A stretch of DNA of 64,000 bases from Henriciella barbarensis (GTDB lineage: Bacteria > Pseudomonadota > Alphaproteobacteria > Caulobacterales > Hyphomonadaceae): positions 248,001 to 312,000 of the forward strand of contig NZ_QWGB01000005.1 in the NCBI RefSeq assembly GCF_003576345.1, read 5' to 3'. The translations under genes were made by a program, and so were the position numbers. Shown piece by piece: positions 2,102-46,409 of the stretch; position 1 is the stretch's first letter, and every line of letters begins with the position of its first letter. The notes beneath the pieces were generated by a model. It searched no databases, was not told the DNA's origin, and saw nothing but the letters and a program-made list of their open reading frames with translations.

Positions 2102-2737
2102 ATGAGCCTTCTGCTAGGTGATACAGCACCCGATTTCGACGCCGAAACGACCGAAGGCAATATCAGCTTCCACGACTGGATCGGGGATGACTGGGTTGTC
2201 TTCTTCTCCCACCCGGCGGACTTTACGCCTGTCTGCACGACGGAGATCGGCTACACCGCCAAACTGAAAGACAAACTCGCCGCGCGCGGCGCAAAGGCCA
2301 TCGTGATTTCTGCAGACAGCCTTGAGGACCACAAGGAGTGGGTCAAGGACGTTGAAGAAACGCAAGGCGCGAAGGTGGAATTTCCACTCATCGCCGATCC
2401 GGACAAGAAGATCGCGACGCTTTACAACATGATCCATCCGAATGCGGATGCAAAAGTGACTGTTCGCGCCGTATATGTGATTGACCCGAAAAAGAAAATT
2501 CGCGCGTCGATCATCTATCCGCCGAGCGCCGGTCGTAATTTCGATGAGATCCTGCGTCTGATCGACTCGCTACAGCTGACGGACGGTTACAAGGTCGCCA
2601 CACCGGTGAACTGGCAGGACGGCGAAGACGTCATCATCGTACCGAGCGTTTCCAATGAGGACGCCGACAAGATGTTTCCGAAAGGATACAAGACGATCAA
2701 GCCTTACCTGCGCACCACGGCGCAGCCGAACAAGTAG
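2102..2737 (+). CDS. Peroxiredoxin, 1-Cys (Prx6-type)
   Basis: This 211-residue thiol peroxidase has the peroxidatic motif PADFTPVCTTE with Cys45. The long C-terminal part, including ADPDKKIATLYNM, VRAVYVIDP and KGYKTIKPYLRTT, is the extended domain of Prx6/1-Cys enzymes. Such proteins reduce hydrogen peroxide and alkyl hydroperoxides in the cytoplasm. It stands alone, divergent from the sixA-like gene, and no OxyR-type regulator is adjacent. A perfect 14-bp palindrome follows the stop codon. Confidence 0.93.
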   Translation: MSLLLGDTAPDFDAETTEGNISFHDWIGDDWVVFFSHPADFTPVCTTEIGYTAKLKDKLAARGAKAIVISADSLEDHKEWVKDVEETQGAKVEFPLIADPDKKIATLYNMIHPNADAKVTVRAVYVIDPKKKIRASIIYPPSAGRNFDEILRLIDSLQLTDGYKVATPVNWQDGEDVIIVPSVSNEDADKMFPKGYKTIKPYLRTTAQPNK

Positions 2738-2738
2738 G

Positions 2739-2752
2739 CAGTTCATGAACTG
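2739..2752. repeat. Perfect 14-bp palindrome after the peroxiredoxin stop
   Basis: CAGTTCATGAACTG is a perfect inverted repeat beginning two bases after the peroxiredoxin stop. It has no T-tract, so it is not a classical terminator. It could stabilise the mRNA end or be a protein site; it could also be chance. Confidence 0.3.
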
Positions 2753-2764
2753 ACGGCGCGGCAG

Positions 2765-2950
2765 TCAGCCGAATGACCGACTTACCATTCGCAGCAATTT
2801 CTGACTCGGGCTGAGGCGGCGACGCTTCAGCCCGAATTTACGTCGTACGCGGTCAGGGGCATCATAGACGGCCCTGATCGTCTGCAGGCGCTTCAAGGCG
2901 CTCTTCGCACGCGGCTTTGACTTTGCTTTCTGTCCGATAGCAAACTCCAT
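2765..2950 (-). CDS. Small, very basic hypothetical protein (61 aa)
   Basis: This ORF encodes 61 residues rich in Lys and Arg (KAKSKPRAKSALKRLQ, RRKFGLKRRRLSPSQKLLR) with no cysteines and no membrane segment. It fills most of the space between the peroxiredoxin and the phosphatase-like gene. The ribosome site is weak, so the call rests on size, position and a biased basic composition typical of small nucleic-acid-binding proteins. No family is recognised. Confidence 0.4.
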   Translation of the reverse strand: MEFAIGQKAKSKPRAKSALKRLQTIRAVYDAPDRVRRKFGLKRRRLSPSQKLLRMVSRSFG

Positions 2951-3071
2951 CTTTGCAACCGTATGGTAACACAGGCTGACGGCCCAACCAAAAAGTCGGC
3001 GTGCAGGCCGTGACAGAAAACCTTCACGTCACAGACGTAAATGTGTCTAAGAATCGCGCCATACGCGAATT

Positions 3072-3986
3072 ATGCCGCCCCTCGATCTGATCCAGTCCCT
3101 GTCCCGTTCCAGCGGGACTTCACCAAATGATGATCGCGCCAATGGGGATGTCGGAACGTCGGCGGGGCACGCCTGGGTCATCGATGGCGCGACCGGTGTT
3201 ACCGACAAAGCCTATGTTAGCAGGGAAGGCAGGGAAGGCAGGGAAGGCAGCGACGCCGCCTGGCTGGCCGAACAGCTCAATACCCGCTTTGCTGAACTTC
3301 CCCAGACATCGGAACCGATCCGCGTTGCTTTGCGGCGCATCATTGGCCGGGTGCGGGATGACTTTCTCCTGCAGACCTCAGCCTCAATAGTACCTGATTT
3401 TGCCATCCCTTCAGCCGCTGCGCTCTATTGCGGCTGGGAACAGAGCGGTCACCTGGTGCATATCCGCTTTTCGGGTCTCGGCGACTGTAGCGCCATTGTG
3501 CGTGAAGAGAGCGGCGCTGTTCACCTTATTGGCGAACTGTCGAGCAGCGGCGATGCGGAGCTGCTTGATCGGTTTGCCGCCTTTCATGGCGATGAAAGTG
3601 AAACCGCCCAGAATGAGCTTCGCGCCTTCCTGCAGGAGCAACGCAGCCGCATGAACACGCCCGACGGTTACTGGGTCTTCTCCATTGTGCCGGAGGCGGC
3701 CAGCCACATCGCCGAACGCACACTCTGCCTGCGCAGTCCTGCAAACCTTTTGATGATGACAGACGGATTTGCGCGGCTGATCGACCACTTCCATGCCTAC
3801 ACGCCAGAGACACTGCTCGATGCAGCGCTCCAGCAGGGGCTGAAGCCGCTCTATGAAGAACTGCGCAGCCTGGAGGCGAGCGACCCTGATGGCACGGCCG
3901 CACCGCGCCTCAAAAAGGAAGATGATGCGAGCGCCGTGCTGGTGCGTCTCGAAACCTCAGACGCACCGGCAGGCAAAACTGCCTAG
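3072..3986 (+). CDS. PP2C-like protein phosphatase domain protein
   Basis: The 304-residue protein carries PP2C-type motifs: NDDRAN near residues 20-24, AWVIDGATGV with Asp38, FSGLGDCSAIV near 133-142, and MMTDGFARLI in the C-terminal third. These Asp residues normally bind the two Mn/Mg ions of metal-dependent Ser/Thr phosphatases, so it probably acts in the cytoplasm. No partner kinase is adjacent. An in-frame run of Arg-Glu-Gly triplets at residues 51-59 comes from a 9-bp tandem repeat right after the first metal motif. Its 3' end overlaps ilvE by four bases, tail to tail. Confidence 0.75.
   Translation: MPPLDLIQSLSRSSGTSPNDDRANGDVGTSAGHAWVIDGATGVTDKAYVSREGREGREGSDAAWLAEQLNTRFAELPQTSEPIRVALRRIIGRVRDDFLLQTSASIVPDFAIPSAAALYCGWEQSGHLVHIRFSGLGDCSAIVREESGAVHLIGELSSSGDAELLDRFAAFHGDESETAQNELRAFLQEQRSRMNTPDGYWVFSIVPEAASHIAERTLCLRSPANLLMMTDGFARLIDHFHAYTPETLLDAALQQGLKPLYEELRSLEASDPDGTAAPRLKKEDDASAVLVRLETSDAPAGKTA
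3222..3248 (+). repeat. Three tandem copies of a 9-bp repeat inside the phosphatase gene
   Basis: AGGGAAGGC is repeated exactly at 3222-3230, 3231-3239 and 3240-3248. Because the unit is nine bases, gain or loss of copies keeps frame and changes the number of Arg-Glu-Gly triplets. The identical copies suggest recent slippage. Confidence 0.9.
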
Positions 3987-4873
3987 GCAGGCATCTTGAT
4001 CTTGCCGTTCACAAGATCTGAATAGTCGTTGACCAGACCTTCGGTCACGCTGCCGGGTTTGTAGTTTACGTCCCCGATCTGGCGAACCGGTGTGATTTCC
4101 GCTGCTGTGCCCGTGATAAAGCATTCCGAGAAGTTCTTCAGCTCGTCCGGCATGATCGTGCGCTCGACGATCTCGATCTGGCGCGCCTTGGCCAGCTTGA
4201 TGGCTGTCTGACGCGTGATGCCGTTGAGAAAGCAGTCCGGGGTTGGCGTGTGGAGCGCACCGTCCTGCAGGAAGAAGATGTTTGCGCCTGTCGCCTCTGC
4301 CACATGGCCGCGATAATCGAGCATGAGCGCATCGGCAAAGCCGTCTTTCTCTGCGGCGTGCTTGGACAGGGTACAGATCATGTAGAGACCAGCCGCCTTC
4401 GCCTCGCACGGGGCGGTCATTGGGTCAGGACGACGCCACTGGGCATGCGTCATGGCAATGCCCTTCATCTTGTCAGCGAAATAATCACCCCAGTGCCAGA
4501 CGGCGATCGCGACGTGGATCTTGTTGTTCTGCGCCGAGACGCCCATCATTTCCGAGCCCCGCCAGGCAAAGGCGCGCACATAAGCGTTTTCAAGACCGGA
4601 TTTCGCCAGCGTCTCATGCTTGGCTTTCTCGATCTCATCGACCGTATAGGGCAGCTCGAAGCCAAGGATGTTCGCGGACCGGTGAAGACGTTCGGTGTGA
4701 CGACGCGATTCGAAAATATGGCCGCCATAGGCACGCTCACCTTCAAACACGGACGACGCATAGTGCAAGCCATGGGTGAGGACGTGAATCGTCGTCTCGC
4801 GCCACGGTACGAATTCGCCGTCCATCCAGATGTATCCATCGCGGTCGTGATACGGTGTGGAGGCGTCGGCCAT
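3983..4873 (-). CDS. ilvE: Branched-chain amino acid aminotransferase
   Basis: A fold-type IV PLP aminotransferase that interconverts Leu, Ile and Val with their 2-oxo acids. From the chosen start it has 296 residues, the usual IlvE length. Visible motifs are YGGHIFESRRHTERLH, CEAKAAGLY holding the PLP lysine, DYRGHVAEATGANIFF, and FITGTAAEITPV. The ATG at 4873 is preferred because AGGA lies about ten bases upstream, and the longer start at 4933 would overlap the divergent MarR gene. The arrangement ilvE divergent from a MarR/response-regulator pair is familiar in alphaproteobacteria. Confidence 0.95.
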   Translation of the reverse strand: MADASTPYHDRDGYIWMDGEFVPWRETTIHVLTHGLHYASSVFEGERAYGGHIFESRRHTERLHRSANILGFELPYTVDEIEKAKHETLAKSGLENAYVRAFAWRGSEMMGVSAQNNKIHVAIAVWHWGDYFADKMKGIAMTHAQWRRPDPMTAPCEAKAAGLYMICTLSKHAAEKDGFADALMLDYRGHVAEATGANIFFLQDGALHTPTPDCFLNGITRQTAIKLAKARQIEIVERTIMPDELKNFSECFITGTAAEITPVRQIGDVNYKPGSVTEGLVNDYSDLVNGKIKMPA

Positions 4874-4926
4874 TATTTCTTGTCCTTGCTTGAACTTGTA
4901 CTCGAAAGAGGCTCCATTCTCAGACT

Positions 4927-5403
4927 GTGGCATCTGAAGTCAACCAGAAGACAGGCGAAAGCGCTCGTGTCGATCCGCGGCTTTTTCTCAGGGAGGAAGA
5001 GCTCGATAATGGTATCGCGCTGCTGCTCGCCAGTGAACGCATTATTAGCGACATCACCCGCAAGGCTCAGCGTCAGACTGGCCTTAATGCGTCAGGGCTT
5101 CGGCTACTGATGACGATCCGCTTTGAACCTGGCCTGACGGTCAGTGAATTGCGTGACAAGATGGGAGCAACGACGCCAACTATTGCCCGGCTTCTCGGAG
5201 AGCTCGACAAGAAGAACCTGGTGGTAAAGACGCAAGGCGGGCGCGATGCCCGTCGGCGGCGCCTGACCCTGTCGGATGAAGGAGAACAGATGCTGCGCCC
5301 ACTTGTGGACAAGTTACGCTCTGCCCTGCGCGATGCATATCGCGACGCTGGCGCACATGCCGTGTCTGGCACCCGCGCGGTCCTGGAGGCCCTTACCCAA
5401 TGA
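4927..5403 (+). CDS. MarR-family transcriptional regulator, PetP-like
   Basis: The 158-residue protein has a winged helix of MarR type: LTVSELRDKMGATTPTIARLLGELDKKNLV as recognition helices (read here as key residues spread over 72-101) and GRDARRRRLTLSDEG as the wing. It starts with GTG at 4927. Its stop overlaps the response regulator start (ATGA). A MarR gene overlapping an OmpR-type regulator beside ilvE matches the petP-petR arrangement described in Rhodobacter, so I read it as PetP-like by context. No direct target is visible. Confidence 0.85.
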   Translation: MASEVNQKTGESARVDPRLFLREEELDNGIALLLASERIISDITRKAQRQTGLNASGLRLLMTIRFEPGLTVSELRDKMGATTPTIARLLGELDKKNLVVKTQGGRDARRRRLTLSDEGEQMLRPLVDKLRSALRDAYRDAGAHAVSGTRAVLEALTQ

Positions 5404-37325: not shown

Positions 37326-37958
37326 ATGAAACTCTACACCGTCCCCGTCGCGCCCAATCCAACCAAGGTCATGCTCTATCTTGCAGAGCGCGCAGAGGCG
37401 GGGAACGCGCTGCCCATCGAGCAGAAAATCGTGAACACGCTCAAAGGTCGCCAGCGTGAGCCTGAACACCTCGCCCGCAACCCTTTCGGTACACTACCTG
37501 TCCTAGAGCTGGACGACGGGACATATCTGCGCGAGTCGCTCGCCATCATCGACTATCTGGAAAGCAAATATCCAGATGGCGCCCTCGCGCCATCAGACGC
37601 CGAAGCGCGCGCCAAGGCCCGCGACCTCGAACGCATCGTAGAGCTCAAGATCGCCAATCCGCTCGCAATCTATGTACACTACAAGAAGTCCCCGCTTGGT
37701 CTTCCGCCCGACCCTCAGCAGGCCACCGCCATTGAAGCGCAGATTCAGGCGCCACTCGACTTTGTTGAAGAGACACTCGGCGATGGACGTGAGCTGATTG
37801 CAGGCGACAGCGTCTCGACCGCAGACCTGACCCTCGCCTCACACCTGCAATTTGTCCGCTTTATCGACGTCGACGTAATAGGCGAGCGACCAAACCTCCG
37901 CGCCTGGGACACGCGCTACCGCGCCCGCCCGGCCGCGCAATCTGTCCTGAAATGGTGA
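37326..37958 (+). CDS. Glutathione S-transferase family protein
   Basis: A 210-residue protein with thioredoxin-like N-terminal domain (MKLYTVPVAPNPTKVMLYLAER; NPFGTLPVLELDDGTYLRESLAIIDYLE holds the cis-Pro and the ES glutathione motif) and helical C-terminal domain (DSVSTADLTLASHLQF). Probably conjugates or isomerises electrophiles. Its stop overlaps the phosphotransferase start. Confidence 0.9.
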   Translation: MKLYTVPVAPNPTKVMLYLAERAEAGNALPIEQKIVNTLKGRQREPEHLARNPFGTLPVLELDDGTYLRESLAIIDYLESKYPDGALAPSDAEARAKARDLERIVELKIANPLAIYVHYKKSPLGLPPDPQQATAIEAQIQAPLDFVEETLGDGRELIAGDSVSTADLTLASHLQFVRFIDVDVIGERPNLRAWDTRYRARPAAQSVLKW

Positions 37959-38854
37959 ACCCAGGCGCCCAAGATTTCGATACCGGGCTCCATGCCTTCA
38001 TTGCCGAACATCTTCCCGGAACCCAGCTTGAGCGGGTCACCAGACTGACAGGCGGGGTCTCGGCCGATGTCTACAAGCTGGACCTCAACGTGGACGTCGG
38101 CCTGCCCGCCGCGGCCGTTCTGCGTATCCATGGCGCGACCCATTCGGGTCATGACGCAGCAGTTGAGTTCCAGCTTCTTCAATCTGCGCAGGCGGCCGGT
38201 CTTCCAGTCGCCGCGCCCATCGCTCATGACCCGGCGGGCACCACACTCGGCAGACCGTGTCTTCTGATTGCCTATGTCGACGGCTCGACCAGCATACCGC
38301 ACGCTGAAATGCCGGGCAGGCTGGACCAGATGGCCGACCTGATTTCCAGCGTTCACGCCACACCAATCGATGGCTTCCCGCTGCTGCAAGAGCGCATCGA
38401 CCCATTGCCTGACCTGTTCAGCCTCCTGCAGGACCCCGCACTCGAATCAGAATGGCGCCAGCGTCTTTCGCATCTAGGCAGCACTCGCTTCACTGGCACC
38501 CCGGTCCTGCTGCACGGCGACCTCTGGCCCGAAAACCTTATCTGGTCGCAGGGGCGCATCGCAGCCCTGCTCGACTGGGAAGACGCCGCCATCGGGGACC
38601 CCCTCTCAGACGTCGCCTGCACGTGTCTTGAACTTCGCTATGTCTTTGGCCGCGAAGGTCTGGAAGCGTTCAAGGCCGCTTATGCGCGCCGCAACAGGGT
38701 CGACGAAGCCCGCCTGACGCTCTGGCTTGCCTATGTGGCGGCGGGCGCCCTTCGCTTTATGGGCGACTGGAATTTGCCGGCAGCAAGGGAGGCCCGGATG
38801 CGGGCCGAGGCGACAGCGACACTGGACGAAGCAGCCGCAAGCCTCACCGCCTAA
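37952..38854 (+). CDS. Phosphotransferase, aminoglycoside phosphotransferase/choline kinase-like
   Basis: A 300-residue protein of the APH fold: TGGVSADVYKL for the ATP loop, LLHGDLWPENLIW (Brenner-type catalytic HGDxxxxN) and ALLDWEDAAIGDPLSDVACT (metal Asp). In alphaproteobacteria such proteins often occur beside acyl-CoA or xenobiotic catabolism genes and are not drug-resistance enzymes. Overlaps the GST gene by seven bases. The stop overlaps the SDR gene tail to tail. Confidence 0.87.
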   Translation: MVNPGAQDFDTGLHAFIAEHLPGTQLERVTRLTGGVSADVYKLDLNVDVGLPAAAVLRIHGATHSGHDAAVEFQLLQSAQAAGLPVAAPIAHDPAGTTLGRPCLLIAYVDGSTSIPHAEMPGRLDQMADLISSVHATPIDGFPLLQERIDPLPDLFSLLQDPALESEWRQRLSHLGSTRFTGTPVLLHGDLWPENLIWSQGRIAALLDWEDAAIGDPLSDVACTCLELRYVFGREGLEAFKAAYARRNRVDEARLTLWLAYVAAGALRFMGDWNLPAAREARMRAEATATLDEAAASLTA

Positions 38855-40166: not shown

Positions 40167-42722
40167 CTAAGCAGACACCGCTTCCAGCCGCTGTTTCGCC
40201 TTCGCTGTTTCAAAGCCGGAATAGCCGCTCGCGGCCACCTGGTCGCAGATGATGCGATAGACATCGACGCCCGCGACATATGCCATGAAGGTGCGCGGCT
40301 TGCCCGGCACATTTGCGCCAATGTACCAGCTATTTGCCTGCGGGAAGAGTGTCTGGTTGGCCATCGCCTCATTGTGCTCGGCCCACTCCTCTTCGGCAGC
40401 TTCCGTCGGCTCGATCGTCTCCAGACCGCGCTCGCGCATCCAGCCGATACAGTCGCTCACCCAGTCCACATGCTGCTCGATGGAAACCATCATGTTGGAG
40501 AGGACGGACGGGCTGGATGGTCCGGTAATGGTGAAGAGGTTCGGGAAACCGGCGATCGCGATGCCCAAATAGGTATGCGGCCCGTTCGCCCACTTGTCGC
40601 TGAGCGCCATGCCGCCCTTGCCGCGAATATCGACCTTGAGCAGCGCGCCGGTCATCGCATCGAAGCCGGTCGCGAAGACGATCACGTCGAAATCTTCCTC
40701 GCCCGCGCTCGTCTTGATGCCTTTCGGTGTGACCTTCTCCATCGGCGTCTTGCGAAGGTCCACAAGGGTCACATTATCGCGGTTGAACGTCTCATAGAAA
40801 TTGGTGTCGAGACAGGGCCGCTTCGTGCCGAACGGATAGGAATACGGCGTCAGCGTTTCAGCCAGTTCGGGGTCCTTCACCCGCGCGTTGATCCGCTCGC
40901 GAATGAAGTCGGCGATGATCGCATTGGACTCCTCGTCCGCCAGCGCATCGGCGAACTTGGTCGTCAGGCCCGTCAGGCCCTGCGTCCAGCCTTCTTCGAG
41001 GCGCCGCTGGCGCTCCTCAGGCGGCACCATGGCCGCAGGCTCCAGCTCCCGTTCCGGTCTCGGGATACCGGCAAAATTATACTTCTGCTCCTCGCGGAAG
41101 TCGCGGTAACGTTCTTTCATCTCGGACACTTCCGAGTTTGTCAGCGGGCGGTTCCCCGCCGGGAGCGAATAGGCAGGCGTGCGTTGATAGACCGTCAGCT
41201 GGCTGGCCTGTTCTGCGATGTGCGGAATGGCCTGGATGGCAGAAGAGCCCGTGCCGATAACGGCGACTTTCTTGCCGGTAAAATCGACACCCTCATGCGG
41301 CCAGCGCCCGGTAATATAGGTCGGCCCCTCAAAGCTTTCGGCGCCCTCGATATCGGGCTCTTTCGGCACTGAAAGACAGCCCGTCGCCATGATTAAATAC
41401 TTGGCAGAGATCGCCTCGCCCGTATCGGTATAGATCGTCCAGCGCGACGTATCCTCGTCATAAACGGCGCGCGTCACGCGCGTCTCGAAAGTGATGTCCT
41501 TGCGAAGGTCATAGCGTTTGGCGACATGCTCGGCATAAGACAGGATTTCCGGCTGCGTCGCATAGCGTTCGCTCCAGCTCCACTCCTGCTCCAGCTCCGG
41601 GTCAAAGCCATAGGAATAGCCTAGGCTCTCAATGTCGCAGCGCGCACCCGGATACCGGTTCCAGTACCAGGTCCCGCCAACACCATCACCCGCCTCAACG
41701 ACACGTGTCTTCAGTCCCATCTCGCGCAGGCGTTTGAGCTGGTACATGCCCGCAAAGCCTGCGCCGACGATAACCGCATCGGCCTGCGAATAGCGGCCAA
41801 GATGCTGGTCGATCTGGTCGCCAACATAATCGATGGCCTTCGCCTGCGCCGGAAGAAGCCCCGGCATGGCGAAGAAATTGTGCATCTGCTTGTCGAACTG
41901 TTTGAAGGTGACAGGCACGCCCGCCTTGCGCAGGGCATCGGCATAGGCCTCGCTCTCCTCGCGCAGGATGTCGTATTCTGCCGTCACAACGACAGCTGGC
42001 GGCAGGCCGGACAGGTCACCTGCGTGCAGCGGCGACGCGTCGACATTCTTCCGGTCGGCCTCGTTCGGGGCGTAATGGTCCCAGAACCACTTCATCATCG
42101 GCGTGTTGAGCAGCAGCTGGTTGTCCATGTTCGCGTAAGACGGCCGCGTCATGTCGCAATCGGTCACCGGATAGACCAGCATTTGCAGCGCGATCTTCGG
42201 CGCGCCGGCGGCCTTCGCCTTCTGGCAGACGATCGCCGCCAGATTGCCGCCCGCACTGTCGCCGCCCACCATGATCGGCAGGTCATCCCCGCCCAGCGTT
42301 TTGAGGTTTGCCGCCGTCCAGTTCAGCGCATCCCAAGCATCATTCGCGGCGGTGGGATAGCGGTACTCTGGCGCCTTGCGATAATCGACCAGCAGCACGG
42401 TGCAAGCCGTGCGCTCGGCCAGCTGGCGACCGACACAGTCATACTGGTCGATATTCGACAGGACCCAGCCGCCACCATGATAGAAGACCATCACGCCTTT
42501 CGGCTTGTCGACCGGGCGATGGATGCGTGCGCGGATCTTGTGCCCGTCGCTCGCCGGGATCTCGATGTCGCGGGTCTCGGCCATTTCCGGCCCGTCAGGA
42601 TAGGCGCCCGCCATGCCTTCGCCAATAAGACGCGCGTCCTGCGGGCTCATCTCATACATCGGTGGGCCTTCGGCAGATGCCAGCTGCGCGAGAAGAGCGG
42701 TGGTCGCAATATCCAGTTTCAT
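40167..42722 (-). CDS. Bifunctional protein: HSL-type esterase fused to Baeyer-Villiger monooxygenase
   Basis: An 851-residue fusion. Residues 1-310 are a hormone-sensitive-lipase-type alpha/beta hydrolase: HGGGW (82-86), GDSAGG with Ser156, Asp251 (AEYDIL) and His281 (QMHNFF). Residues 314-851 are a class B flavin monooxygenase: VIVGAGFAGM (FAD), VGGTWYWNRYPGARCD, AVIGTGSSA (NADPH) and QRTPAYSLP. In the Baeyer-Villiger fingerprint F.G...H...W the His is Ile470 (F464, G466, W474 kept). The joint is short, with no stop or frameshift. Such a protein could turn a ketone into an ester and then hydrolyse it. The ATG at 42722 has GGGAG ten bases upstream. Confidence 0.9.
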   Translation of the reverse strand: MKLDIATTALLAQLASAEGPPMYEMSPQDARLIGEGMAGAYPDGPEMAETRDIEIPASDGHKIRARIHRPVDKPKGVMVFYHGGGWVLSNIDQYDCVGRQLAERTACTVLLVDYRKAPEYRYPTAANDAWDALNWTAANLKTLGGDDLPIMVGGDSAGGNLAAIVCQKAKAAGAPKIALQMLVYPVTDCDMTRPSYANMDNQLLLNTPMMKWFWDHYAPNEADRKNVDASPLHAGDLSGLPPAVVVTAEYDILREESEAYADALRKAGVPVTFKQFDKQMHNFFAMPGLLPAQAKAIDYVGDQIDQHLGRYSQADAVIVGAGFAGMYQLKRLREMGLKTRVVEAGDGVGGTWYWNRYPGARCDIESLGYSYGFDPELEQEWSWSERYATQPEILSYAEHVAKRYDLRKDITFETRVTRAVYDEDTSRWTIYTDTGEAISAKYLIMATGCLSVPKEPDIEGAESFEGPTYITGRWPHEGVDFTGKKVAVIGTGSSAIQAIPHIAEQASQLTVYQRTPAYSLPAGNRPLTNSEVSEMKERYRDFREEQKYNFAGIPRPERELEPAAMVPPEERQRRLEEGWTQGLTGLTTKFADALADEESNAIIADFIRERINARVKDPELAETLTPYSYPFGTKRPCLDTNFYETFNRDNVTLVDLRKTPMEKVTPKGIKTSAGEEDFDVIVFATGFDAMTGALLKVDIRGKGGMALSDKWANGPHTYLGIAIAGFPNLFTITGPSSPSVLSNMMVSIEQHVDWVSDCIGWMRERGLETIEPTEAAEEEWAEHNEAMANQTLFPQANSWYIGANVPGKPRTFMAYVAGVDVYRIICDQVAASGYSGFETAKAKQRLEAVSA

Positions 42723-42819
42723 GGCCTGTTTCTCCCTGATCTTTTGCGGCCATGCTCGCGCTTGGAACGCGTTATGGCAATCGCGAACGCAAGGGAAACC
42801 GGCAAGGAGAGTACAGGCC

Positions 42820-44805
42820 CTAGACCCGGTCGCGGCCCCAGCTTTCCACGATTTTCTGGCGGACCCCGTCGATTTCATCCCGAACGACCGGCGCTTTTTC
42901 CAGCTGCTGGTCGGCGTCAGTATGGAAAATATAGAGACGCGAGGCAAAATCACCGATCGGGACGGACGACTCGCCATAAAATTCGCCATTGCCCGCCGTC
43001 GAGACCAGAATCCCGTTGCCCCAGTCCTGCCCGCTGTCATTGTTCGGATTGAAGAAATAGACGCGGACGACACCGGACGGGTCACGCGCCACCCTGATAA
43101 TCGCGATGGCGTGCCAGCCGACAAAGCGCGCGGCGCTGTCGGTCACCGCAATGCCGGCCGGGCTTGGATGGATCACCGGCTGGTTGCCATTATGGTCTGG
43201 ATGGAAGGCGGCATAGAACCGGCGAATGAAGCCATTGGCATCGGTCAGTTTGCCGGTCGGCACATCGACAATGATGTTGAACGTGCGCGCGACCCACCAG
43301 CCATGCATCTCGGGATTGATCCACTCATGCGGATCACCGGCGCGCTTGGCGCACATCCGGCCCATTTCCATATAGATGCGGTCCAGATGCGGCACCAGGA
43401 TCGCCGACACAGGGTCAACATCCAGAAGCTCGCCCTGCGCCAGTCCGGCAGCAAGACCACCCGAAGAGATCGACTTGCCTTCAAACGGCATGCGCACTTC
43501 ATTGTCGCGCGCCGCCCATGTCACCAGCTGCAGCAGATAGTCCGGATCGGTATAGGCCCACATCGCGATGGCGCGCGCGGCCTGACAGGTCGGATTGTTG
43601 CCCTGCCCGACGCCGAGCGGTTGGCCAAGAACGCTGATCACCCCCGCCAGAAGCCGCGTCTCTACCGGGACATCCCCGCCATAGGTCGCGACAAGCCGCT
43701 GGCTGACAGCCGGGGCAAGCTCAAGACCGATCTGGCGCCAGAGCGCTGGCACCGTCGGCGGCAGGTGCAGGATGCCCCGCTCAAGCAACAGCGAAAGGCC
43801 ATAGATCGCCTGCGCCGTGACGGGGCAGATCGCCTTTTCGATCAACGCATGCGTCAAGTCGGCATACATTCGGTAACCGAGACGCCCTGCGGCGGTCAGG
43901 CCAAGCACGTCCGGGATGAAATCGGGTCGGTTTTGCCAGATATGGCGCAGCAAGACCGCATGATAGGCAGAAACAAGCCCCGTATCGTGCATCGCCCGCG
44001 CCATACCGGCCGCTTCGTGTCCAAGCGACTGGTCATCGAGCGCCGAAAGCCTGCTTGCATAGTTCTCGAGGCCCGGGTCTTCGCGGGTTTCATTTGTTGG
44101 TGCGAACAGAGAACTGATCAGCCTGTCTGCGCCCCAACCTGATTGCGCCTGGTCGCCGCCCCCCTCATTCATCCAGAGCGACAGCTGCAGGATCATGGAT
44201 CGGATACGCCCCGTCTCGATCGGTCGTTGCGCCAGGATGCGCCAGATTTCCGCGATGACGGAATCGAAGACCTGCCCATATCCAATGGTCTCGGCGACCC
44301 GTTTGAAGAGACTTTGCAAGGTCGCTGTCCAGTCAGGGTCGGCCATGCGTGAGGCTTCAGTCCCCGCGCCAAACAGAAAGTCCAGGTTGAGGCCGAGCAC
44401 CCGCGCAAGAAAGTTTTTGGCTTCGTCCGCAGACACGGCCGGGTGCACCATCTGACCGCTGGCAATCGCGAGGAAGCGAAGCTCGCTCAGCGTCTCCAGA
44501 ACCAGCGAGGTCGGGTGACCCGATTCCAGCGTATGACGCACCAGAACGGGCTTTAGTTGCGCCGGATTATCCCAGTCGGTCCCGGTAAAAATGCCGGCGT
44601 GCTCGAGCGCCTCGATGCGCTCGAAACACGCATCGATCCCGCCCGGCTGCTTCAGGACTTTCACACATTGATCGATGGCCGGGCTTTGTTGGCGCAGCTT
44701 CATCTTCGCGCTCATCTTGGCAAGCCTGGTAATGGCAGCATCCAGCCGCTTGAGATGTGCAGCATCGACGCCACCATCTGACTTGTTCGGATCGGCTCCG
44801 TTCAC
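42820..44805 (-). CDS. Large uncharacterised protein with papain-like Cys-His-Asn pattern
   Basis: A 661-residue protein. Residues 1-380 are helical and of unknown type. The C-terminal part has Gln401, then Cys407 in GQGNNPTCQAARAIAMW, His565 in GWHAIAIIRV and Asn587 in YFFNPNNDSGQDWG. In papain the order Gln19-Cys25-His159-Asn175-Trp177 has nearly the same spacing, so a papain-like peptidase, amidase or transglutaminase fold is inferred. No signal peptide. The GTG at 44805 is chosen because AAAGGGG lies six bases upstream; a TTG at 44835 lacks a ribosome site. It follows the ATP-grasp gene by 76 bases in the same direction. Confidence 0.72.
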   Translation of the reverse strand: MNGADPNKSDGGVDAAHLKRLDAAITRLAKMSAKMKLRQQSPAIDQCVKVLKQPGGIDACFERIEALEHAGIFTGTDWDNPAQLKPVLVRHTLESGHPTSLVLETLSELRFLAIASGQMVHPAVSADEAKNFLARVLGLNLDFLFGAGTEASRMADPDWTATLQSLFKRVAETIGYGQVFDSVIAEIWRILAQRPIETGRIRSMILQLSLWMNEGGGDQAQSGWGADRLISSLFAPTNETREDPGLENYASRLSALDDQSLGHEAAGMARAMHDTGLVSAYHAVLLRHIWQNRPDFIPDVLGLTAAGRLGYRMYADLTHALIEKAICPVTAQAIYGLSLLLERGILHLPPTVPALWRQIGLELAPAVSQRLVATYGGDVPVETRLLAGVISVLGQPLGVGQGNNPTCQAARAIAMWAYTDPDYLLQLVTWAARDNEVRMPFEGKSISSGGLAAGLAQGELLDVDPVSAILVPHLDRIYMEMGRMCAKRAGDPHEWINPEMHGWWVARTFNIIVDVPTGKLTDANGFIRRFYAAFHPDHNGNQPVIHPSPAGIAVTDSAARFVGWHAIAIIRVARDPSGVVRVYFFNPNNDSGQDWGNGILVSTAGNGEFYGESSVPIGDFASRLYIFHTDADQQLEKAPVVRDEIDGVRQKIVESWGRDRV

Positions 44806-44881
44806 GGCGCACCCCTTTGATTCGCCTGTTTTCAAGGCGAGCCTAGTAAAGACTGAATTGCATGACTACCGGCGCGAACGC

Positions 44882-46108
44882 CTAGACGTAGAAGTCGACA
44901 TCTTCCTGCGCGGCTAGAAGGTCACGCATCGTTTCGCCATCCTCGCCGTGGAAGTAGACAAGGCCCCAATGATTGCCGAAGGCAGAGCGTTTTGAAACCT
45001 TGGTTTCCATCGGTTCGCTGAGCTCATGCCAGTCGAAATAGGGGTGGTCTTCTGTCTCTTTCGGTATTTCGAGCCGTGAAACGACACGGTTGCGCGGATA
45101 AACGCCGAAACAGCCAGCATACCCATTGGCATCCTTGACCGGCGTCGGGAAGAACGCCTCGATCTCTTCCTCGGTGGTCTTCGGGTCGAACATCATGACC
45201 ATGCCCTGATAGGCATTGAAGCCATAAACCCGCTCCAGAAGCTCGAAGACCTTGAAGCCTGGCGGACGGTACGCAACCTCGCCGAAGTACATCACATCGT
45301 CCGGCCCGATAAAGTATTCCGGGTGGATGAAGCCGAACTTGATGTCGAACGTCTTGATCAGCTTCTCGATCTCGGCCGTCACCTTGTCTCGCATGGCTTC
45401 AAGCTCGGGGCTCGCCGGCACGAAGACCGAATAGCCTAGCCGGACATATTCAGAGATGTTCAGGAAGCGGATCTTGCCATCATGGATCCAAGCCTCGGCG
45501 GCATATTCCCAGCCATCGAGATGGCTTTCCATCAACACGGGGAAATCGGATTCAGGGATAAGATCGACATCCTCGACATTCCTGACCACGCGGTGGCCCA
45601 TGCAACCAGCAAGGTCGAACGCCTTGATGTGGATCGGGTCGTTGGCATCTCCTTCCTGCTTCAGGAGGGTCTGGTTCACACGTTTGAGGAACCGTTCGAC
45701 GTCGCCCCGGTCGTGGGCTTCCTCAAAGATACCGACGCGGATACCGCCCAACTGGGCCCGGCGCTTCATCAGCGATTTGTCGCGAAACAGCATGGACTGG
45801 CCGAGCAGCCGCGGATTGTCGAGCAGGACAGCATTGACGGCGCCCGCCCATTCAACCGTTTCCTCATATAGCGGCACGGCAACGTCGACGCCTTCATCTT
45901 TCAGCATCTGCGCGATCTCGAAGGAATTTTCGTTCAGCCGTTCGAAATTCCAGGACATGAAAGGAATGTCGTTCTTCTCGGCATATTCCCGCGCCCAGTT
46001 CGGTGCCACCACGATATAGCGGCGATCAAACTTCTCCATCGCGTCGATCGCGTTGAGGCTCCAGCCGAGGAGCGCAATATAGCCTTTGTCGGGATTATAA
46101 TCAGTCAT
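44882..46108 (-). CDS. ATP-grasp domain protein of unknown substrate
   Basis: A 408-residue protein with ATP-grasp features: a Rossmann-like N-terminal (GYIALLGWSLNAIDAME), FRDKSLMKRRAQLGGIRVG, FPVLMESHLDGWEYAAEAW (ATP-binding beta strands) and YFGEVAYRPPGFKVFELL, where Glu and Arg match the metal and phosphate ligands. Such enzymes make amide or peptide bonds through acyl-phosphates. GGAGG lies four bases upstream of the ATG at 46108. A 13-bp palindrome lies 47 bases upstream. It precedes the papain-like gene, suggesting a bond-making and bond-breaking pair. Confidence 0.8.
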   Translation of the reverse strand: MTDYNPDKGYIALLGWSLNAIDAMEKFDRRYIVVAPNWAREYAEKNDIPFMSWNFERLNENSFEIAQMLKDEGVDVAVPLYEETVEWAGAVNAVLLDNPRLLGQSMLFRDKSLMKRRAQLGGIRVGIFEEAHDRGDVERFLKRVNQTLLKQEGDANDPIHIKAFDLAGCMGHRVVRNVEDVDLIPESDFPVLMESHLDGWEYAAEAWIHDGKIRFLNISEYVRLGYSVFVPASPELEAMRDKVTAEIEKLIKTFDIKFGFIHPEYFIGPDDVMYFGEVAYRPPGFKVFELLERVYGFNAYQGMVMMFDPKTTEEEIEAFFPTPVKDANGYAGCFGVYPRNRVVSRLEIPKETEDHPYFDWHELSEPMETKVSKRSAFGNHWGLVYFHGEDGETMRDLLAAQEDVDFYV

Positions 46109-46409
46109 TGGACCTCCACGGGGTCGTGTCGTCATTGAACGGTTAACTTGAAAATGAACTCAGTTCAGGCTGCTTGCTCCGGTCCGGCGCGCTTTGGCGC
46201 AGCCAGATACAGACAAATCGGTCCGGCACGTGTCTCGCGGCCGGGCAGCTCTGAATTCCTCGAATGCATGTAGCCTTCAAGCTAGGAGGGGAAGGCAGCA
46301 AGTCAAACGCCAGCCCACCCTGAAACCGGCCTGCAAGGGTGGCTCTTCGGAACCAATGGCCTGCCCTGCCGCTTACTCTTCAGCAATCACAGACAGTGGA
46401 GCCCTGACC
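46109..46409. other. Divergent intergenic region with one palindrome
   Basis: About 300 bases between the divergent ATP-grasp and DUF1328 genes. Besides the palindrome at 46155-46167 I see no RNA gene or supported ORF. It must hold the promoters of both genes. Confidence 0.6.
46155..46167. promoter_or_regulatory. 13-bp perfect palindrome upstream of the ATP-grasp gene
   Basis: TGAACTCAGTTCA is a six-plus-one-plus-six perfect inverted repeat, 47 bases upstream of the ATP-grasp start, a typical place for an operator. The regulator is unknown. Confidence 0.4.

Follow-up and report, generated by a model that had tools for sequence, protein, structure and literature searches.

A natural esterase-monooxygenase fusion from Henriciella barbarensis as a candidate one-chain ketone cleaver

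Introduction

The reaction pair in which a Baeyer-Villiger monooxygenase (BVMO) makes an ester and an esterase then cleaves it has been described for separate proteins, and here we report a gene that joins domains of these two kinds on one chain, in a 64,000-nucleotide stretch of the Henriciella barbarensis genome (contig NZ_QWGB01000005.1, positions 248,001 to 312,000; hereafter the window). In the parts of the literature consulted, AcmA and AcmB of Gordonia sp. TY-5 are presented as an oxygenase followed by an esterase, but as two proteins, and BpfC and BpfD of Sphingobium yanoikuyae DN12 as turning dihydroxybenzophenone into a phenyl ester and then into hydroxybenzoate and hydroquinone (PMC12724174). 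In demethoxyviridin biosynthesis VidF and VidP, a BVMO and then an esterase, are described as stripping an acetyl side chain (PMC5943271), and the reference list of PMC4498894 holds a title on a BVMO and an esterase for 4-sulfoacetophenone in Comamonas.

Among the titles and abstract openings listed by searches of the open-access literature, none reports a natural esterase-BVMO fusion; subscription papers lay outside these searches and priority is not established. The words "fusion" and "fused" are absent from the main texts, as available, of PMC4498894, PMC5408260 and PMC10682829, as is "hydrolase" from that of the first, and the accessible portion of PMC9141793, which reviews multi-centre enzymes, names P450-reductase as a natural fusion, with engineered BVMO fusions solely in its references. 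The physiological substrates of most BVMOs are described as unknown (PMC4498894, in the part consulted), and a fused esterase would offer a physiological clue, namely that the ester is an intermediate and not the product.

Results

Domains of the fused protein

The open reading frame (ORF), its strand and its limits are as a first-pass annotation of the window had given them (Table 1), and the hydrolase-flavin monooxygenase (FMO) fusion with an intact Ser-Asp-His triad that it proposed is borne out by the motifs and by the Pfam and PDB domain matches. The N-terminal part is, by sequence, a complete family-IV (HSL-type) esterase with triad and oxyanion motif intact: the Abhydrolase_3 profile, of the alpha/beta-hydrolase fold, covers residues 78-284 (Pfam, E 2.3e-71), the HGGG, GxSxG (as GDSAG), Asp and His of that family are all present, and the family-IV esterases returned by a PDB sequence search match entirely inside residues 2-308. 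Est8 (4ypv), rPPE (4ob8) and SshEstI (3wj1), which presumably carry the same HGGG, GDSAG, Asp and His motifs, share the fold at 38% identity across 303-309 residues. The PDB matches listed for the protein include no fused chain. Against the LipP1 family (NCBIfam NF058653) the protein scores 327.8 bits, below the curated cut-off of 350.

The C-terminal part is a complete BVMO-like domain of the PAMO/STMO kind. Pfam places Pyr_redox_3/FMO-like at residues 317-517, PAMO residues 15-539 are matched by residues 312-837 with 647 bits (PDB sequence search), and PAMO (1w4x/2ylw) and STMO (4ap3) share the fold over 517-528 residues at about 50-54% identity. Like PAMO, the fusion has the Rossmann motifs and the first-fingerprint residues; the type I BVMO pattern [A/G]GxWxxxx[F/Y]P[G/M]xxxD is present as GGTWYWNRYPGARCD at residues 349-363, and PAMO Arg337, which we take to be catalytic, and Asp66 have their counterparts in Arg635 and Asp363. 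The second pattern, FxGxxxHxxxW[P/D], is broken in FEGPTYITGRWP, with Ile at the place of the His that PAMO keeps (173 in the numbering of the PDB search), and because of this replacement we call the protein BVMO-like (PAMO type) and not a strict type I BVMO. The monooxygenase had earlier been called "full", which holds for its length, its Rossmann motifs and its first fingerprint and not for this His (Ile470). The domains meet at residue 309/310, near position 41,795, with no linker between them; the 41.76 kb previously given for the junction is the GxGxxG motif for flavin adenine dinucleotide (FAD), and the junction lies just before it.

Conservation of the fusion

We conclude that the fusion is not an assembly error because ten genomes among 299 of the order, counting the window's own, carry full-length, in-frame copies without a stop, at 66-100% identity; nine of these genomes are from the genus of the window and one is from another genus of the family, and one of the ten is a single contig. 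A frameshift, read-through or chimeric assembly was rejected on this intact frame, and there is no frameshift at the junction, a possibility the first-pass annotation had raised. The hydrolase-FMO domain order is found in these genomes and in relatives elsewhere, which confirms the natural fusion and takes the architecture beyond the locus and the order. The start codon is ATG in nine fusion loci and GTG at the same place in L018, and a G-rich purine run precedes it in the window copy and nine related loci. An upstream TTG start (985 aa) was rejected, as the upstream in-frame peptide varies from locus to locus and a sequence resembling a ribosome-binding site precedes the ATG at 42722; a promoter and terminator scan gave nothing scoring above shuffles.

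Both domains are under purifying selection, the ratio of nonsynonymous to synonymous substitution (dN/dS, Nei-Gojobori, window copy against six others) being 0.06-0.16 for the hydrolase and 0.05-0.14 for the BVMO domain; over the 13 codons at the junction, a stretch too short to judge, the ratio is erratic and once reaches 1.6. The fusions conserve Ser156, Asp251, His281, HGGG, Arg635, Asp363 (PAMO Asp66) and the two Rossmann motifs. GDSAG, Asp and His are kept in 9/9 hydrolase-first rows of the hydrolase tree described below, with HGGG in the nine aligned rows, and Arg635, Asp363, Trp352 and Arg514 are invariant in 100/100 aligned BVMO rows.

Distribution and independent origins

A species-wide scan (one genome per species, 84,980) gave at least 584 relatives, of which the best 80 loci, ranked by score, were kept; because the patterns used to choose them came from both domains, the fused fraction among these 80 is inflated, and the counts for the order and the phylum sample are less biased. 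Throughout, "no hydrolase" means that none was found in the stretch examined, about 1.5 to 8 kb per side and less at contig ends. Among the best 80 there are two hydrolase-first fusions, in an alphaproteobacterial metagenome-assembled genome (MAG) and a Halieaceae MAG, and 16 BVMO-first fusions by frame and order, with hosts that include Bradyrhizobium, Pseudonocardia, Mycobacterium intermedium, Neobacillus, Mesobacillus, gammaproteobacteria and Acidimicrobiia. In eight further loci the two genes are unfused, point the same way and stand with the hydrolase before the BVMO (Chloroflexota, Streptomyces, Mycolicibacterium, Bacillus, Nonomuraea, Prauserella), four rows have the two adjacent in reverse order, including L086 and L121 (same frame but partial), and three loci have a hydrolase near. 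In L121 (5902-10959; Bradyrhizobium sp. AT1) the frame is open for 1685 codons, and the copy may be degraded or misassembled because its hydrolase match is just 124 aa long and lacks GxSAG. The MAG record titles of L098 (Bifidobacterium breve), L137 (Klebsiella pneumoniae) and L103 (Devosia equisanguinis) look doubtful for BVMO contigs.

Within the order, a hydrolase lies within 1.5 kb at two of twenty loci (L019-L038), both of them one-frame BVMO-first fusions (L023, L026). Among 29 order loci with wide flanks, 11 of which overlap the former set, both fusions included, two are BVMO-first fusions and four have a hydrolase gene in the same direction no more than 160 bases away. Of the five best fetched loci besides the window's own (L170-L174) in a phylum sample of 120 genomes, L172 and L174 are BVMO-first fusions, L173 is an adjacent pair and the other two have no hydrolase; L171 and L173, as members of the order, already appear in the counts above. 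A further match from that search, L199, is also fused, and four weaker FMO-like loci (L177, L178, L179, L192) have a hydrolase match in the flank.

A match is present in 1351 plasmid records, of which 131 span 80% or more of the query at a single site. Three of five opened matches have separate genes with the hydrolase first. On a Cupriavidus pinatubonensis plasmid the hydrolase (2441-3379) and BVMO (3419-5119) are 39 nt apart, with an SDR gene 15 nt downstream; on a plasmid of Microbacterium sp. No. 7 they are 12 nt apart (2501-3445 and 3458-5104), and in both pairs the coordinates put the two genes in one reading frame. A Streptomyces sp. NBC_00887 plasmid has hydrolase, alcohol dehydrogenase and BVMO in a row. 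A Cupriavidus sp. KK10 plasmid, unannotated at that place, has the BVMO first, and Bradyrhizobium sp. CB82 has a BVMO-first fusion (L219, WP_283043299.1) that is one coding sequence in the NCBI annotation, where its sole label is alpha/beta hydrolase fold protein. Neighbouring matches to BVMO and hydrolase occur as well on plasmids of Natribaculum and Natronorubrum (matches H9-H11), which we take to be haloarchaea.

The fused state requires three changes on a tree of BVMO domains (100 rows), and four after the addition of L200 and then L219. The fusion clades are hydrolase-first (support 99-100), main BVMO-first (99-100), Bacillaceae (100) and L200 with L219 (100); a single clade of all fused rows is rejected by the approximately unbiased test (p-AU 7.8e-5), as is one of all BVMO-first rows (p-AU 1.3e-5). 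The hydrolase tree likewise gives three changes and rejects one clade (p-AU 3.4e-5). It sets L200 beside the main BVMO-first clade (support 90), for which reason we state that the fusion arose independently at least three times, probably four, in both domain orders. The trees omit L080, which shares a contig with L026/L055, and the BVMO tree also omits L011-L013, near-copies among the ten order fusions, and six of the twenty order BVMO loci (L029, L030, L032, L036, L037 and L038); L086, L121 and L098 are labelled BVMO-first fusions in later trees and in the His-site counts below, L086 and L098 being cut by contig ends and L098 having no hydrolase match.

The nucleophile elbow is GDSAG in 9/9 hydrolase-first and 2/2 Bacillaceae fusions, GWSAG in 15/15 main BVMO-first fusions and GESAG in L200 and L219. 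The window hydrolase falls in a clade (98) with seven of the eight hydrolases of unfused hydrolase-BVMO pairs (Actinomycetota, Chloroflexota), and none of 29 sampled free hydrolases lies inside it. The simplest history that we infer starts from an old pair of neighbouring hydrolase and BVMO genes, the frames of which later merged, and for this the same-frame plasmid pairs of Cupriavidus and Microbacterium have the expected intermediate form. Against so simple a history, the BVMO partners of the unfused pairs are scattered on the BVMO tree, where their 8 rows need 7 changes. Streptomyces carpinensis L066 holds the closest unfused pair on one tree (85), a placement poorly supported on another (37).

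The fingerprint histidine

At the His site the ten order fusions have Ile (five) or Val (five), L059 has Val and the Halieaceae relative L060 has Arg. The His is kept in 0/9 hydrolase-first rows of the tree (Ile, Val or Arg in all nine), 0/18 main BVMO-first rows and 2/2 Bacillaceae fusions, and is Thr in L200 and Arg in L219; it is thus missing from three of the four fusion lineages. Among BVMO relatives with no hydrolase 44 of 58 retain it, and it is kept in 6/8 hydrolase-BVMO neighbours, in 1/2 reverse neighbours and in 2/3 with a hydrolase near. Absence of the His does not strictly follow fusion: L088, the closest row to the main BVMO-first clade, has Phe at the site and no hydrolase. Loss of the His as a consequence of fusion is suggestive only, the independent-pairs test having had too few pairs. 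A 2015 survey of BVMO evolution (PMC4498894) is described in its consulted part as retaining only sequences with both fingerprints and would for that reason have passed over such proteins; surveys based on fingerprints can thus miss a group.

The replaced His raises the alternative that the flavin domain is an N- or S-oxygenase or another oxidase and not a true BVMO, and Ile470, together with the absence of His from all hydrolase-first and main BVMO-first rows and from L200 and L219, speaks for it. We consider this unlikely, since the closest solved relatives are PAMO and STMO, the domain retains the first fingerprint and the counterparts of Arg337 and Asp66, and the His is also absent from 14 of the 58 relatives with no hydrolase and retained in the two Bacillaceae fusions.

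Features and neighbouring genes

Table 1. Coordinates in the window of the fused gene, its parts and some neighbouring genes
Feature	Position	Strand	Basis
Fused esterase-BVMO gene, 851 aa	40167..42722	-	ORF; ATG at 42722, stop at 40167
Ribosome-binding-site-like GGGAGA	42731..42736	-	8 nt upstream of ATG
Esterase domain, residues 1-309	41796..42722	-	Pfam and PDB sequence matches
BVMO domain, residues 310-840	40203..41795	-	PDB sequence matches
Oxyanion-hole HGGG, residues 82-85	42468..42479	-	Motif alignment
Nucleophile elbow GDSAG, residues 154-158 (Ser156)	42249..42263	-	Motif alignment
Catalytic acid Asp251	41970..41972	-	Alignment
Catalytic base His281	41880..41882	-	Alignment
FAD Rossmann motif GAGFAG, residues 320-325	41748..41765	-	Motif alignment
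First BVMO fingerprint GGTWYWNRYPGARCD, residues 349-363	41634..41678	-	Motif alignment
Second BVMO fingerprint, variant FEGPTYITGRWP, residues 464-475, Ile470 replacing His	41298..41333	-	
Codon of fingerprint His site (Ile470)	41313-41315	-	
NADP Rossmann motif GTGSSA, residues 490-495	41238..41255	-	Motif alignment
Arg635, aligned with PAMO Arg337	40818..40820	-	Alignment
Globin-like protein, 153 aa	39672-40133	+	Pfam Globin E 0.0013, below cut-off; PDB 3wfw, E 1.9e-7
APH-type kinase gene	37952-38854	+	
671-aa protein beside 417-aa protein	42820-46135	-	No Pfam match (671 aa); sub-threshold ATP-grasp match (417 aa)

The globin-like gene, whose PDB match is to a hemoglobin-like domain, adjoins the fusion gene. 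The 671-aa and 417-aa proteins are also found together in L039 and L044. The APH-type kinase gene is flanked by GST and SDR genes; it has no match in five sister stretches (L039-L043) and a homologue elsewhere in L044.

Discussion

We read the fusion as a bifunctional ketone-cleaving enzyme that would convert a ketone by way of an ester into an alcohol and an acid, and give this reading a probability of about 0.7. Its C-terminal flavin domain would use FAD, NADPH and O2 to insert oxygen beside the ketone carbonyl, and the N-terminal Ser-Asp-His esterase, held adjacent without a linker, would split the resulting ester, yielding a short acid together with an alcohol or a phenol. These reactions, like the class of substrate and the direct passage of the ester, are our inference; kinship to PAMO and STMO suggests, from what is known of that family, that the ketone is probably a bulky or aryl methyl ketone and the ester probably an acetate, with acetate released. 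The cascade is likely because both active sites are intact and the pairing was reached repeatedly, the convergent fusion being its best support. That the hydrolase acts on the oxygenase's ester, as the first-pass annotation expected, has comparative support, from repeated fusions in both orders and from co-directional neighbours. Several points weigh on the other side: activity and substrate are predictions, the fingerprint His is replaced by Ile in the window protein, no hydrolase was found beside 47 of the best 80 BVMO relatives or at 23 of the 29 wide-flank order loci, and the neighbour genes are not conserved among fused loci, which therefore lend no pathway support for a substrate.

The fusion itself tells merely that two steps are linked. 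Alternatively, then, the hydrolase might act first and free the oxygenase substrate from an ester (or amide), which the flavin domain would then oxidise; in the window chain the hydrolase does stand first, and HSL-type esterases are promiscuous. However, chain order carries no step order because it is reversed in other fusions, and the three separate-protein pairs AcmA/AcmB, BpfC/BpfD and VidF/VidP run, as described, from oxygenase to esterase; we regard hydrolysis before oxidation as improbable.

A catabolic cluster of OYE, SDR, GST and APH genes beside the fusion was rejected as pathway evidence, since the 18-kb stretches L046 and L047 hold no match to any of them and other genes intervene among these neighbours in L041-L043. 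Across the neighbourhoods of different fusions no shared family was found beyond BVMO and hydrolase, plus clusters taken as spurious or chance. So variable a neighbourhood, with a channel between the sites that is only proposed, would suit a fusion without coupling, in which the chain unites two unrelated detoxifying activities or one domain chiefly aids folding or dimerisation. This is made very improbable by the repeated independent fusion, by the occurrence of the hydrolase lineage beside BVMOs and by the intact catalytic residues of both domains.

Returning to the ketone-to-alcohol-and-acid cascade, a bolder extension, which we advance tentatively and think rather doubtful, is that selection for passing the ester directly from flavin to esterase site made one-chain ketone cleavers converge at least three times, as might happen with an ester that is volatile or toxic or that competitors would take. 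On this view the repeated absence of the His would be the sign of a flavin site retuned or freed by coupled hydrolysis, and if this were true, surveys demanding the His fingerprint would have discarded most such proteins. A natural one-chain catalyst from ketone to alcohol plus acid, of several origins, would permit a direct test of channelling and could guide the building of cascades.

Compared with described systems, the fusion differs from PAMO and STMO, which are without an esterase domain, and from Est8, rPPE and SshEstI, which are single-domain. BpfC and BpfD are, as described, a BVMO and an alpha/beta hydrolase in sequence, like the cascade proposed here, but are separate proteins, and BpfC keeps the His fingerprint, unlike the window protein; VidF and VidP are fungal and likewise separate. 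BVMO-first fusions such as that of Bradyrhizobium sp. CB82 come closest, with the same two activities predicted on one chain, but have the reverse order, hydrolases of other lineages (GWSAG or GESAG elbows; GDSAG in Bacillaceae) and a separate origin. The window protein is a known reaction pair, as predicted from its domains, in an unusual one-chain form of convergent origin.
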